The notes beneath the pieces are model-generated. The model worked only from the letters and a program-made list of their open reading frames with translations. It was not told where the DNA came from and did no database searches. The translations under genes were made by a program, and so were the position numbers. Shown piece after piece: positions 7,219 to 64,000 of a DNA stretch of 64,000 nt. Source of the DNA: Woeseiaceae bacterium (GTDB lineage Bacteria; Pseudomonadota; Gammaproteobacteria; Steroidobacterales; Woeseiaceae); the NCBI GenBank assembly GCA_021773095.1, contig JAJFKR010000029.1, positions 62,001 through 126,000 of the forward strand. The letters are read 5' to 3'. The stretch's first letter is position 1; each line of letters begins with the position of its first letter.

Positions 7219-8745
7219 TTACTGAATCGCCAAGGGGCCCATGAAGCTTGTGTCTTTGTCTCTCAAAACGAAGTCCCTGTTGACCCGGACACTGTCAATA
7301 TCGGATGTGTCCATAGCGTACTTCATGGCGGCATACGCGACGACATCTGAGTTCACTTCCAGTGACTTGAGGCTAATGTTATCGAACGTATCACACTCGC
7401 GATGATAACAGGGGTCATACTGCTCCCCGGCCGTGCCACCCCACAAACCGGCTTCGTTGACTGTCTTGATACCCTCTGCACCGGTAAACAACCCGCCCGA
7501 AGGGATGCCAACCTCAATGAATGGACCGTAGTCCGAACGGCCAGAGAAATCGGTGCCCTTGAATGGTTCGCCCAGCATCGAGTAATACGTTTCGAAGGTT
7601 TGCTCAATTTGTGCGGAGCCGCTTGGGCCCGGACCAGCGCCGATCCCGTCGGAATCGTCACCGTCATATATTGAAAAGACGTAGTTTGGGGAGCCGATCA
7701 TGTCAAAGTTGAGATAAAGCGTTATCTGGCCCAGTTCCTGCGGCGACAGGTTGCTCACGTAATACCTGGAACCGACGAGGCCAGATTCCTCCGCCCCCCA
7801 CCAGGCAAAGCGCACCCTGTTGAGCGGGGTGACAAGAGCCATTTGCACGGCCGTCTCAAGGATAGCTGCACTGCCCGAGCCGTTGTCCTGGATACCCGGA
7901 CCCTGATTCACGGAGTCGAGGTGCGCTCCGACCACAATCGTATTGTTCGGATCACCGCTTATCGTATCGGCAAGCACGTTGTAACTTGTCGCCAGACCAC
8001 GGAAGACATCCACGACCATGTGAAATTCAAGTCCAGCCATCATCGACCATTGCTCACCGAGACTATAGGTGGAAAACAACACCGGTATTCCTCCGGCGTA
8101 GCCGGCCCCGAGGGAGGCGCTGTCCAGGCCGAGTCGATCGTTCGTATTGCCCTGGTTGAATATGATGGCGCCGACGGCACCGGCAGCGGCCGCATTCTCG
8201 GCCTTCTGTCGATACGTACAGGTGCCTCGCTGAATCAGTGCGATGTGACCGACGGGAAAAGTCGCAAAGTCCGCCACTTCACAGCCGCTGGTTGATGTGT
8301 TGTCCGGCCCCAGCTGCAGGTCGACGGCGGTGACCTGCGCCGTTACATCTCCCGGGTCGGTTTGCGATATAAGCTCGTGATCAATCCCGTCTATATAAAT
8401 AGTCGGCACAGGCGACTGCTGCTCAAGAACAGACGGTCCGAGCCTTATGAATGCAGGGTACTGAAATTCTTGCACGATCACGATGTACCCTGCGGCTTCC
8501 AGCTGAGATGCGACGTACTCAGCTGACTCGTTATAACCCGGTGTACCCGATACCCGAGTACCGTTGTTGGCATCAGCAATGCTCTGCAATACTGATTGGT
8601 GGGCACGCACGCCGTCTATCGTCACCAGTTCAACAAGGTCGAGAGGTGTACTGACCACGGGTGGATCACTGCTGTGCTTCTCGGAACAAGCGACTCCCAG
8701 CAGTGATACGAGAAGCACGGCTATTGAGGTGATCTTTCTGCGCAT
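7219..8745 (-). CDS. M28-family zinc aminopeptidase with PA domain, lipoprotein
   Basis: A 508-residue exported peptidase. I start at MRRKITS (8743-8745) and not 10 codons upstream, because this places a proper signal peptide with lipobox LLGVAC (Cys20). A protease-associated (PA) insert lies at about 120-235. The M28 catalytic domain follows with GAHLDSV (His275, Asp277), IQDNGSG (Asp287), WWGAEESG (Glu319/Glu320), NFDMIGS (Asp348) and a distal CYHRECDT histidine, which together form the usual co-catalytic two-zinc site. It would trim amino acids from peptides in the periplasm or at the cell surface, which fits the nearby S8 protease. It is immediately followed by the amidohydrolase gene. 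A few M28 members act on other amides, but aminopeptidase is the most probable role. Confidence 0.92.
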   Translation of the reverse strand: MRRKITSIAVLLVSLLGVACSEKHSSDPPVVSTPLDLVELVTIDGVRAHQSVLQSIADANNGTRVSGTPGYNESAEYVASQLEAAGYIVIVQEFQYPAFIRLGPSVLEQQSPVPTIYIDGIDHELISQTDPGDVTAQVTAVDLQLGPDNTSTSGCEVADFATFPVGHIALIQRGTCTYRQKAENAAAAGAVGAIIFNQGNTNDRLGLDSASLGAGYAGGIPVLFSTYSLGEQWSMMAGLEFHMVVDVFRGLATSYNVLADTISGDPNNTIVVGAHLDSVNQGPGIQDNGSGSAAILETAVQMALVTPLNRVRFAWWGAEESGLVGSRYYVSNLSPQELGQITLYLNFDMIGSPNYVFSIYDGDDSDGIGAGPGPSGSAQIEQTFETYYSMLGEPFKGTDFSGRSDYGPFIEVGIPSGGLFTGAEGIKTVNEAGLWGGTAGEQYDPCYHRECDTFDNISLKSLEVNSDVVAYAAMKYAMDTSDIDSVRVNRDFVLRDKDTSFMGPLAIQ

Positions 8746-61160: not shown

Positions 61161-61955
61161 TCATGCCGATACGTATTGCGGTGGCCCGGCAAGTGAGCGT
61201 CCACCATCGCAGGGAATGATTGCGCCGCTCAAATATTGTGCGGCATCGGAACACAGAAAAACCGCCAGCGAAGCGATCTCATCGATGCGCCCGTAGCGGC
61301 CCATCGGAATGGCCTGTTCCACTCGCTTGCGGTCTTCCTCAGTAGGTGCCAGGCGAGCCATTCCTTCCGTTCCCTCGATCGGCCCGGGCGCGATTGCATT
61401 GACCCGTACGCCGGCAGGCCCCCACTCCAGCGCCAACGTTTTCGTTAGCATATCCACACCGGATTTTGCGGCGCAGACATGCGCCTGTGCCGGATACGGC
61501 AACGAGCCCTGCGGAGCCGAAATGTTGATGATCGATGCGCCCGGTTTGTGCAAATGCTCATACGACGAACGCAGTACATTGAAGGTTCCGAGAAGGTCGA
61601 TATCGACGACAGCTTTGAAACCATTGGAGGAGAGTTCTGCCGCGGGTGCAACGAAGTTGCCAGCGGCACCGGACACGACGATATCGAGTTGGCCCAGCGT
61701 ATTGGCGACTTTGCCGACAGCATCCGCTACCGCATCGAAGTCACGTACGTCGGCTGCCATTCCGACCGACCTGACGCCTGTCGCCTCGATCTCGGCGACT
61801 GCGGCTTCTACCTTGTCCTGAGACCGGCTCAATACAGCAACGTCGGCACCAAAAGCGGCCAGAGCTTTTGCAATGCCAAGATTGATGCCGCTGGTGCCGC
61901 CGGCTACAAACGCAACTTGGCCTGACAGAATATCGGGCGCGAAGGCATCACTCAT
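61161..61955 (-). CDS. Short-chain dehydrogenase, 2,4-dienoyl-CoA reductase (DECR2)-like
   Basis: A 264-residue SDR. The cofactor motif is VAGGTSGINLGIA and the NNAG-like strand is DIVVSGAAGNFVAPAAELSS. The active-site region is SLPYPAQAHVCAAKSGVDML, in which the Lys is not in a classical YxxxK setting. The pattern plus the PG motif APGPIEGTEGMARLAP resembles peroxisomal-type DECR2 and its bacterial relatives. Such enzymes reduce 2,4-dienoyl-CoA during beta-oxidation of unsaturated fatty acids. Start is preceded by AGGAGT. The upstream fatty-acid hydroxylase fragments suggest a lipid context. A different SDR substrate cannot be excluded. Confidence 0.82.
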   Translation of the reverse strand: MSDAFAPDILSGQVAFVAGGTSGINLGIAKALAAFGADVAVLSRSQDKVEAAVAEIEATGVRSVGMAADVRDFDAVADAVGKVANTLGQLDIVVSGAAGNFVAPAAELSSNGFKAVVDIDLLGTFNVLRSSYEHLHKPGASIINISAPQGSLPYPAQAHVCAAKSGVDMLTKTLALEWGPAGVRVNAIAPGPIEGTEGMARLAPTEEDRKRVEQAIPMGRYGRIDEIASLAVFLCSDAAQYLSGAIIPCDGGRSLAGPPQYVSA

Positions 61956-61983
61956 TTAATTACTCCTGTTGGTGGTTTGTAAT

Positions 61984-62163
61984 TCAGCATAAGTTAATCC
62001 ATTCCATCTTTATAAACGGTAGCCGGCCAACCCGGGACGCCGGATCCATGTGGTAGGCGAAATGCAGTAACTCGTAATTCAGGAAATACAGCATTGCCGT
62101 GATCACGAACAGCAAAGCAATATTCAACGACAACAGGAAATACAATAATGCGGCGACCGGCAA
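61984..62163 (-). pseudogene. Fatty-acid hydroxylase/sterol-desaturase family gene, 3' fragment (split by insertion)
   Basis: The frame from 62163 reads LPVAALLYFLLSLNIALLFV then ITAMLYFLNYELLHFAYHMD, the mid membrane part of a fatty-acid-hydroxylase-like protein, then RLPFIKMEWINLC and a stop (61984-61986). The N-terminal part is at 63476-63775. The expected C-terminal histidine motifs are absent: sequence ends 28 bases before the SDR start. So the gene carries two lesions, an insertion and a 3' truncation. Confidence 0.75.
62159..62163. repeat. Left copy of 5-bp direct repeat GGCAA (possible target-site duplication)
   Basis: GGCAA sits directly outside the left inverted repeat; an identical GGCAA is at 63476-63480. 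A five-base match can arise by chance. Confidence 0.45.
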
Positions 62164-62179
62164 CCCAAAGCGGACAGTT
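62164..62179. repeat. Left terminal inverted repeat of the cassette
   Basis: CCCAAAGCGGACAGTT matches the reverse complement of 63462-63477 (CCAAAAGCGGACATTT) at 14 of 16 positions. It lies seven bases outside the stop of the enclosed oxidoreductase gene. Confidence 0.65.
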
Positions 62180-62185
62180 ATCGTC

Positions 62186-63388
62186 CTAGTGAGAAAATGC
62201 CTTTTGCCACTGTAGGCATCGCTGTGCATCACGCTCATCGTATTCTTGAACAGCCGACGGAAGGTCAAGTTCAAAACTACTTTCACGATCAATTCCCAGC
62301 GCTGTAAGTCGCATCGTGAACCAAGCAGTTACTCCGCCTGGGACCGTAGAACTGAATCGCGGAAACTGGGGGTCTTCACCGCTTCCGGTTAGCCAATGAT
62401 TCGGAAGTTCGGTATCGAGCGCCATAGCGCGGGCTAAACCGACAATATCCGCCGCTCCTGTTGCTAAAGCATCAACCGCTTGATCGCGTTTCTTGAACCC
62501 CCCCGTCACCATAATCGGTACATTTGAAACCTCCTTTGCACGGCGGGAGAAACCTACAAAGTAAGGTCCACTACTTGCGCCGTCCGAGCTTGCTTTGGCT
62601 CCCGGGAAGTATGTTCCTCCACTGATGTCGATGAGATCAACTGAGGTCGCGTTCAGGAGCCGTATTGCCTCCAAAGAATCAGTCTCAGTCAGTCCGCCTT
62701 CCAGTTGATCCGTTGAGTTGATTCTGATTCCAATTGGAAACAGCGACCCTACCGCATCACGTACCTTGGCAATTACTTCGAGAACAATGCGGCAACGCGC
62801 TTCAATCGAACCGCCATATCCGTCAGCTCGGTGATTAAACAAGGGCGAAAGAAACTGGCTGAGCAAGAAACCATGACCCGCGTGAATCTGAACTCCTGTG
62901 AAGCCCACAGATTTTGCGTGCAGCGCGGCTTTAGCATACATATCAGGTAGGTCTTTGATTTCGGCAGGGGATAACTCTGCACATTGAAGACCCTCCAAAC
63001 TTAGGGAAGATGGGCCTTTCGGGCGACTTATTGGCGGATGCGAAAGCGCACCAGCATGACCAAGTTGCGGCCAAATATGAGCATCACCAACCGTTGCTCG
63101 GCTTGCTAATTTCCGCAATAAGTCATCGTTAGAATGTGGTCCGAGTACCAAGTTGCCCGGTTTCTCGGGGAATCGATAATCTCCTTGCACTTCACCTATC
63201 AATGACAACGCAACCCCGCCCTCTGCCCACTTCTCGTAAAGGCGAGCTTGCGCTCCCGTTGGGTTGCCTTCTCCATCGGCCAATGAATCGGACATTGGGG
63301 ATTTGGCAAGTCGATTCTTAAGAATCTTGCCGCACGGAAGTTCCAGTGGTGTTCGGAGGGCTTCCAAGTGTCCTTTATCGTCGTTCAA
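62186..63388 (-). CDS. NADH:flavin oxidoreductase (Old Yellow Enzyme family)
   Basis: A 400-residue FMN-dependent TIM-barrel enzyme with inferred TTG start (63386-63388), nine bases after AAAAGGA. Features are LRTPLELPCGKILKNRLAKS, GVQIHAGHGFLLSQFLSPLF (substrate-binding His pair), HRADGYGGSIEARCR, FPIGIRINSTDQLEGGLTE, IDISGGTYFPG, VTGGFKKRDQAVDAL and DIVGLARAMALD (phosphate binding of FMN). There is no C-terminal Fe-S/FAD extension, so it is a single-domain ene-reductase type. It is the sole gene of an inverted-repeat cassette inside a hydroxylase gene. Probable reaction: NAD(P)H-dependent reduction of activated C=C bonds. Confidence 0.92.
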   Translation of the reverse strand: MNDDKGHLEALRTPLELPCGKILKNRLAKSPMSDSLADGEGNPTGAQARLYEKWAEGGVALSLIGEVQGDYRFPEKPGNLVLGPHSNDDLLRKLASRATVGDAHIWPQLGHAGALSHPPISRPKGPSSLSLEGLQCAELSPAEIKDLPDMYAKAALHAKSVGFTGVQIHAGHGFLLSQFLSPLFNHRADGYGGSIEARCRIVLEVIAKVRDAVGSLFPIGIRINSTDQLEGGLTETDSLEAIRLLNATSVDLIDISGGTYFPGAKASSDGASSGPYFVGFSRRAKEVSNVPIMVTGGFKKRDQAVDALATGAADIVGLARAMALDTELPNHWLTGSGEDPQFPRFSSTVPGGVTAWFTMRLTALGIDRESSFELDLPSAVQEYDERDAQRCLQWQKAFSH

Positions 63389-63461
63389 ATATGACGTTCC
63401 TTTTCCCTGTTCCGAAACTGTCTAGCTGCACGCACATGATAACTCGACTGAATAGCGAACC

Positions 63462-63477
63462 AAATGTCCGCTTTTGG
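63462..63477. repeat. Right terminal inverted repeat of the cassette
   Basis: AAATGTCCGCTTTTGG, the inverse of the left repeat at 14 of 16 positions. It overlaps the right GGCAA (63476-63480) by two bases. Confidence 0.65.
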
Positions 63478-63480
63478 CAA
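63476..63480. repeat. Right copy of 5-bp direct repeat GGCAA
   Basis: Partner of 62159-62163. It lies where hydroxylase homology ends in the 5' fragment. Confidence 0.45.
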
Positions 63481-63775
63481 AGCAGCCATTGAAGAACAAC
63501 AGCATGATTGGTGGAAACAATACGGCCTTGTAATCCTGCGAAGTATCGAACGTCGCAGCCTCGTCGGTGAAAAACGCATGGTGTTCGATCGTATGGCGCT
63601 CAAAAATCAGGCCGAGAAAGCGTGTTCGGTGGTGCATTGGTCCTTTGTGACCCAGGTACTCACTCAGCAGACAGACGGCAGTCGTAGTGGCGAGATGCAG
63701 CGGGCCGGAGTATTTGTTCGAAATATGTCGCCCACGAAACTCGGCCCGGGCTTTTTCAACTGATTCTATAGTCAT
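63476..63775 (-). pseudogene. Fatty-acid hydroxylase/sterol-desaturase family gene, 5' fragment (split by insertion)
   Basis: From ATG at 63773-63775 the frame gives ~100 family-like residues: RFLGLIFERHTIEHHAFFTD, the HxxxHH motif, then YKAVLFPPIMLLFFNGCFA, where homology stops at the cassette. Another 17 codons of cassette sequence follow before a stop (63422). The 3' half at 61984-62163 continues the membrane pattern in a frame shifted by one base, so even precise excision with one GGCAA copy would not restore the frame without a further change. The original protein would have been a di-iron membrane hydroxylase or desaturase. Confidence 0.75.
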
Positions 63776-63798
63776 TGATGTTGTCCGCTAATTATTGA

Positions 63799-64000
63799 CT
63801 AGTCGAGAAAAAAACCGTCCGGATCGAACAGGCGTAATAAGGTGAGTTCGTCCACTGTGGGTAGCGCCATGCACGTCACATCCGTGTGCTCGTCCGGTGT
63901 GCCAAAAAAATCCGGCTTGTCGATCTCGGTGTCCGCGTCGTCGTCATCCGCGGACCGATAAACGCTGCTGATCGTGAACGCATCGTCATCGCGGGTCATC
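63799..64000 (-). CDS. Acidic protein C-terminus, partial, unknown function
   Basis: An open frame from the right edge ends at 63799-63801. About 66 residues are visible, rich in Asp/Glu (SADDDDADTEIDKPDFFGTP) and closing with LPTVDELTLLRLFDPDGFFLD. An ATG occurs at 63997-63999 but the frame may begin beyond the window. No domain is recognisable. It lies 23 bases upstream of the hydroxylase 5' fragment on the same strand and may have been co-transcribed with it. Confidence 0.45.
   Translation of the reverse strand, partial: MTRDDDAFTISSVYRSADDDDADTEIDKPDFFGTPDEHTDVTCMALPTVDELTLLRLFDPDGFFLD

Follow-up and report, generated by a model that had tools for sequence, protein, structure and literature searches.

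How can a single metabolic gene, with no enzyme of its own for moving DNA, come to lie within the coding sequence of another gene? The question is raised by a locus in a 64-kb stretch of DNA from a Woeseiaceae bacterium (hereafter, the window), for which the original prediction proposed a minimal mobile unit without a transposase, carrying one metabolic gene and possibly belonging to a family that uses a transposase in trans. Integrons are the textbook platform for capturing genes one at a time. From the comparisons described below, we consider that the insert is probably (at roughly 0.7) a single-gene cassette of an integron-like system, with a short tyrosine recombinase as its enzyme. Leaving the enzyme aside, it appears very likely that the insert is a cassette of the family of dyad arrays found in related genomes.

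The insertion site

The two pieces flanking the insert match no Pfam or NCBIfam family at 1e-3, and the name fatty-acid-hydroxylase-like is that of the original prediction. That they are pieces of one gene, as was claimed, is confirmed by homologs, since 45 fetched contig loci match both pieces in tblastn searches, the two matches mostly meeting with an overlap of one codon. In the 44 junctions read from these 45 loci (L051 was dropped by a filter), a proline stands at the same offset in all 44, and Ala-X-Pro, as in the joined pieces, is present in 27. The ancestral joint is GCC|TTG, with zero bases gained or lost. The homolog codons therefore place the ends of the insert where Table 1 gives them, to within about 1 base per side, because the final base of the Ala codon and the initial one of the Leu codon are unassignable, and the ancestral gene would have read ...GGC TGC TTT GC(N) (N)TG CCG.... 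Judged from the sequence, the insertion is real, its junctions are codon-exact and there is no target duplication. In addition to being split, the gene is damaged in comparison with a homolog, as about 29 residues are gone inside the N-terminal part and the end of the protein is lost.

The sequence GGCAA, noted in the original prediction, is indeed present on both sides of the insert. Such a repeat, together with an imperfect inverted repeat at the ends (see below), might be expected of a non-autonomous transposon with short terminal inverted repeats, a transposase acting in trans and a 5-bp duplication of GGCAA. However, a duplication is ruled out by the reading frame: if GGCAA is counted only once, the ancestral gene loses 5 bases and is frameshifted exactly at the site, and GGCAA is therefore taken as native hydroxylase sequence. 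Similarly, although the G+C content of the insert is lower than that of its surroundings, as had been proposed (0.513, compared with a mean of 0.557 and an sd of 0.022 in the window, where 1.9% of equal windows are as low), this carries no weight as evidence, because the hydroxylase pieces are lower still (0.498).

No uninterrupted hydroxylase locus with the same neighbours was found in a close sister. Neither the SDR gene, GpsA nor the gene beyond the hydroxylase lies near the intact hydroxylases of 18 short, partly overlapping loci, and, of 40 further genomes belonging to the genus, 7 contain a hydroxylase match. The present case is the only documented insertion into a gene; as the interrupted gene fixes both junctions to the codon, it shows the position at which such a cassette is cut.

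Table 1. Features of the insert and the interrupted gene, in window coordinates
Feature	Position	Strand	Length	Remarks
Insert	62164..63475		1312 bp	One cassette body plus a half-dyad at each end; from junction homology with hydroxylase homologs
N-terminal hydroxylase piece	63476..63775	-	100 codons	About 29 internal residues missing
C-terminal hydroxylase piece	61984..62163	-		End truncated
GGCAA	62159..62163	+		Native hydroxylase sequence, not a target duplication, by the frame argument from homologs; likewise 63476-63480
Left half-dyad CCCAAAGCGGACAG	62164..62177	+		Equivalent to the right half of H4; aligned with the G361 cassette end
Right half-dyad ATGTCCGCTTTT	63464..63475	+		Equivalent to the left half of H1
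Complete dyad at the right junction	63464..63489	.		Insert half plus hydroxylase half AAAGCAGCCAT (63479-63489)
OYE-family (NADH:flavin oxidoreductase) gene	62186..63388	-	400 aa	TTG start; the single gene of the cassette; PF00724

Dyads at the ends of the insert and in relatives

The ends of the insert are the two halves of one dyad (ATGTCCGCTTT / AAAGCGGACAT). The imperfect inverted repeat to which the original prediction drew attention (62164-62179 and 63462-63477) is present, with 14/16 matches, but it is one of 20 inverted pairs in 2.5 kb, two of which rank above it, and alone it is unremarkable. Its weight comes from the agreement of its ends with junctions that were fixed independently by the homologs. 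In the genome of origin, the exact 16-mer has no copies besides the two insert ends, and 81 copies are found with up to three mismatches, compared with 87 in a backward control; two other sites with the core AAAGCGGACA (L060 and L065) are not dyads. Thus, the search for the repeats around other genes of the same genome, which had been suggested as a check, gave nothing. By contrast, the dyad does occur in relatives, so the repeats are not confined to this locus.

Among 274 genomes of the class, the palindrome expected from joining the two ends, TGTCCGCTTT-N(0-12)-AAAGCGGACA, occurs in one genome, at two sites (G011), and the backward control also gave one genome. One of the G011 sites reads TGTCCGCTTTTGACCCAAAGCGGACA, which equals the joined window ends provided that both ambiguous boundary bases are counted as part of the insert. 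A looser form of the dyad is present in 8 of 59 genomes of the same order, compared with 1 of 59 in the backward control. Additionally, 28 stretches of IMG/VR contigs (L085-L112) hold the dyad, many of them with two copies about 46 bases apart that have two different centres; some of these may be chance matches, and several of the contigs stop near the dyad, as if the repeat had broken the assembly.

In G281, and in G327 from the same genus as the window, single genes are separated by a conserved multi-dyad element, H1-H2-H3-H4. The element consists of up to four dyads with arms GTCCGCT/AGCGGAC, which are near-palindromic and have variable centres. A model of its second half, R1, covers 77 positions and was built from 19 elements (G327, G281 and G011), with no sequence from the window. 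At E <= 1e-4, R1 elements were found in at least 26 of 117 genomes of the order and at least 9 of 12 of the genus, counts that are lower bounds, with soft absences, because at most 40 first-look candidates were scored per genome under stricter filters. The genome of origin is one of the three of 12 without an R1 element at this threshold, 40 of its 761 first-look candidates having been scored. A blastn search of two elements against plasmids gave no match for one of them and 12 short partial matches for the other.

Could these elements act as RNA? Against this reading, a scan of five stretches gave no Rfam match that covers the element, there is none at E <= 1 in 61500-64000 of the window, and covariation in the pair counts does not exceed that of shuffled sequences. 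The dyads are therefore read as paired DNA binding sites, and the dyad looks like a recombination site.

When R1 was run with cmsearch on both strands of the window and L206 (72.8 kb), its best match was the right junction of the insert, 63454-63489 (E 0.0087), the arms of the match being formed by the hydroxylase letters ATGGCTGCTTTGC and the insert letters AAAAGCGGACATT. On 77.4 kb of other stretches (21 loci from the genome of origin and 2 from plasmids), R1 found only the same junction, in L317. In agreement with this, the loose pattern GNCYGCT-N(4-13)-AGCRGNC has a single match in the window, which is the right-junction dyad. From these two matches it follows that the target carried a near-half-site by chance, as coding sequence. 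The left flank of the target shows no half-site resemblance. The insert is without H2 and H3, which calls for either their loss by deletion or a simpler site made of one dyad.

These observations also bear on the transposon explanation. In relatives, the repeats are whole dyads or multi-dyad elements lying between genes, not transposon ends, and the target resembles the half-site that is missing from the insert. Consequently, although the proposal of a family that relies on an enzyme encoded elsewhere is supported, a transposon with a 5-bp duplication is highly improbable, the ends being halves of dyads.

Arrays of single genes

In the fetched loci, which were chosen for holding elements and whose statistics describe arrays and not a random sample, 85 elements remained after merging, forming 49 neighbouring pairs within 3 kb with a median gap of 783 bp. 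The two elements of a pair are co-oriented in 45 of 49 cases (binomial p 8e-10). One ORF is enclosed by 36 of the pairs, two by 8, none by 4 and three by 1; of the 49 ORFs inside co-oriented pairs, 43 point the same way as the elements. The six contigs of G361 contain at least 27 elements, scattered over the chromosome and often paired at distances of about 500-1400 bases. No array was found among the candidates scored in the genome of origin, whose assembly is 89% complete.

Some of the array genes scanned have matches among enzymes, peptidases or TPR proteins, many have no Pfam family, and loci of different genomes have array genes in common (60% amino acid identity between L138 and L181, and 69% between L181 and L286). 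Two elements of G327, flanked by unrelated genes, share 98.4% identity along 187 bp that begin within H1 and finish within H4, and several less similar pairs of G327 elements also end near the right arm of H4. The breakpoints of the G327 elements thus fall in the same two dyads, H1 and H4, as the cuts of the insert in the window.

Two minor observations concern the content of the arrays. Six c-di-GMP-I riboswitches (RF03167 and RF01051) lie inside the arrays of L136, L137, L138 and L127, among five stretches scanned; several are upstream of single cassette genes, and cassettes may therefore carry their own switch. In a G281 array, a MerB-like gene (alkylmercury lyase family; L125 2695-3444) adjoins a dyad cluster.

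The passenger gene

The gene between the hydroxylase pieces belongs to the OYE family, as had been proposed, its protein matching PF00724 with an E value of 4.5e-44 (151.6 bits, above the gathering cut-off of 27). Besides this reading frame, the insert has only short overlapping frames, with no recombinase or transposase gene among them, which supports the view of a minimal mobile unit that carries one metabolic gene and no enzyme of its own.

In a search of 117 genomes from the order, the OYE protein has its closest relative in G361, a member of another genus (72% amino acid identity), and the next best match reaches 43%. In G361, the ortholog stands alone between an R1 element (L255 5962-6033) and dyads at about 7320-7400, which by eye are H1- and H2-like. 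Its orientation relative to H4 and H1 is the same as in the window, as predicted, and the two cassette bodies align out to the right half of H4. Over 400 aligned codons, the two genes have a dN of 0.20 and a dS of about 2.4, which is saturated, and the gene has therefore been kept by selection. The OYE relatives found on plasmids of Pseudoalteromonas and Vibrio (at most 63% identity) are neighbours of LysR regulators, and neither a dyad nor an R1 match accompanies them.

An alternative is that REP/BIME-like palindromes flank genes by chance and served as the places where the OYE gene came in, through illegitimate or homologous recombination. BIMEs are mosaics of related palindromes in intergenic DNA, a description that also fits the elements, and no array was seen in the genome of origin. 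Nevertheless, the clustering of the elements, their co-orientation and their one-gene spacing are unexpected of scattered palindromes; the joint is codon-exact with both ends in dyad centres, and the OYE gene recurs in another genus with its orientation kept. For these reasons, we regard the REP/BIME explanation as decidedly unlikely and retain that of a cassette.

Proposed movement of the cassette

The precise insertion, the dyad halves at both of its ends, the dyad completed by the target, the family of arrays and the same cassette gene in another genus are all read from the sequences themselves. From them, we infer site-specific conservative recombination with movement in circular form and exchange in the centre of the dyad. 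The recombination site would be the dyad ATGTCCGCTTT-(about 6-7 bases)-AAAGCGGACAT, and the cassette body between the centre of H4 and that of the next H1 would be released as in integron excision. Cassettes would move as circles whose junction consists of two dyad halves, for instance ...GTCCGCTTTTG/ACCCAAAGCGGAC.... A recombinase that reads half-sites would then join the body to a stretch of the hydroxylase gene that resembles a half-site by chance, GGCAAAGCAGCCAT, in a single conservative exchange that leaves no target duplication. Since neither a copy of the candidate recombinase nor an array was found in the genome of origin, the enzyme would have acted elsewhere or earlier, either in a donor, on a plasmid passing through, or in this genome until it was lost.

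In comparison with insertion sequences and MITEs, the insert differs in its lack of a target-site duplication, with a codon-exact joint deduced from 44 homologs. Strand-biased circularizing integrative elements (SEs) are closer, as they also have imperfect inverted ends that form a dyad in the circle and insert into coding sequences. However, the SEs described in PMC10214605 carry intA-tfp-intB-srap, a set that is missing from the insert, which has one OYE gene and short overlapping frames.

Candidate recombinases

In L137 of G327, L126 of G281 and L286 of G349, a short tyrosine recombinase of about 210 aa, which matches PF00589 only and no NCBIfam model over its cut-off, adjoins an element and diverges from the closest cassette genes, although in L286 one gene further in has the opposite orientation. 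Of the 117 genomes of the order, 7 encode it (G167 as a fragment only), and elements are present in 6 of these 7 compared with 20 of the 110 others (Fisher p 4e-4). In all seven aligned sequences, R59, K87, H156, R159, H182 and Y191, which we take to be the tyrosine recombinase catalytic set, are invariant. Other loci show different arrangements: in G383 an element lies downstream of the gene, in G327 there is an element on both sides, so that this recombinase may itself be a passenger, and no R1 element lies near either of the two G343 copies or near one of the two in G326, the second G326 copy having only a weak R1 match (E 0.025). Moreover, the short recombinase was not found in the genome of origin or in 20 of the 26 element-bearing genomes, including G361 with its 27 elements. 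On the basis of these correlations, it is a tentative candidate for the cassette enzyme, for which the odds fall a little short of even.

Relatives of this recombinase occur on plasmids, with about 70-73% identity over 94-96% of the sequence among the 15 listed of 1458 matching records, in Cupriavidus, Paraburkholderia, Thauera and Pseudomonas. They differ from the array enzyme in that their annotation is generic ('tyrosine-type recombinase/integrase') and that no R1 element lies near the four copies fetched from those 1458 records (L302, L303, L304 and L305). These four are 70-72% identical, and decayed dyad-like sequence was seen by eye beside some of them.

The best rival for the enzyme is a dif-type reaction of XerCD, in which host XerC/XerD would move the cassettes as they move the dif modules of Acinetobacter plasmids, the dyad being a 28-base dif-like site (11-6-11). 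Dyad and dif are alike in size and half-site layout, and G361 and G292, which have elements and no short recombinase, each encode at least two Xer-sized tyrosine recombinases; in the genome of origin, the Xer matches on C6 and C34 are XerC-/XerD-like by neighbourhood, and a third match lies on C22. Nonetheless, XerCD is near universal, yet 91 of the 117 genomes of the order gave no element (soft absences). In addition, the dyads are near-palindromic with variable centres, multi-dyad and chromosomal, unlike the asymmetric XerC/XerD sites. The plasmid modules share with the cassettes small gene units and 28-base sites with two arms and a 6-base centre, pdif sites being described in PMC13141974 as 28 bp with a 6-bp spacer. 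According to the same account, however, standard pdif modules are bounded by asymmetric sites in inverse orientation, whereas the elements are co-oriented in 45 of 49 pairs. We thus consider the participation of XerCD unlikely.

A true integron integrase is also encoded by the genome of origin, on contig C40 (above the TIGR02249 cut-off, E 2.1e-120), and, as integron integrases have published off-target activity (PMC10127599), it could have placed an ordinary gene cassette at a secondary site. The gene (L206 7012-8004) is located at the end of the contig, with a cassette-like ORF upstream. By eye, however, no attC or G|TT joint was recognised in the insert, and the sequence of the host's own integron, GCCTAAC, is unlike the dyads. 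TIGR02249 over its cut-off was found in none of the eight genomes examined out of 10 element-bearing ones of the family (G167, G292, G306, G327, G343, G349, G361 and G372, the last with a partial match; G380, G384 and G281 were left out). As regards the sites, an attC consensus (R''...R') was found in 0 of 39 elements compared with 0.58 in shuffled sequences, in a test whose positive control hardly exceeded its shuffles, and attC pairs numbered 6 in the dyad-array loci compared with 9.1 after shuffling, the positive-control loci giving only 2 compared with 1.2. Insertion of an ordinary cassette by this integrase appears very unlikely, and a cassette from the dyad arrays remains the preferred source of the insert.

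The dyad arrays nevertheless resemble integrons in several respects. Single-gene arrays are split by co-oriented conserved elements whose orientation most genes follow, insertion leaves no duplication, and in three loci a tyrosine recombinase is divergent from the nearest cassette genes with the site between them, a layout that is not seen in G383 and G343, while G361 has no such recombinase. Arrays of mostly single, co-oriented genes are found in the relatives and not in the genome of origin. By contrast, the elements have up to four dyads, the arrays and lone cassettes of G361 are scattered over the chromosome, and the candidate recombinase, of about 210 aa, matches PF00589 only. Because no integrase over the cut-off was found in the eight array genomes examined, the dyad arrays are not classed as integrons; by analogy, the system would work like one, with circles and capture as predictions.

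It is possible, although we hold this with less than even confidence, that the arrays represent a second system of the integron type, one that does without IntI and attC and combines a short tyrosine recombinase with multi-dyad sites. If so, the system would assemble single-gene cassettes and scatter them over chromosomes in Woeseiaceae-like gammaproteobacteria as well as in their relatives, and the cassettes could also settle at half-sites away from arrays, which is what the OYE cassette would have done here. Such a parallel system, with sites of its own and probably a different enzyme, would mean that single-gene storage and shuffling originated or diversified repeatedly. It could account for single-gene islands of environmental genomes, for which integron searches are not designed, and would also provide a recombinase that acts on short palindromic sites. 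No description of such arrays was found among the papers listed in the literature searched, which excluded preprints and most subscription journals.

The first enzyme considered was a FimB/FimE-like recombinase next to a G281 array (L125), a candidate that was abandoned, its close relatives being found, among 22 genomes, only in G281 and G294 and as a fragment in G343. It is a second short tyrosine recombinase, closest to models of FimB/FimE-type invertases (L125 3735-4382 in G281 and L288 5481-6119 in G294), and in L125 it is divergent to the array, with a dyad between.
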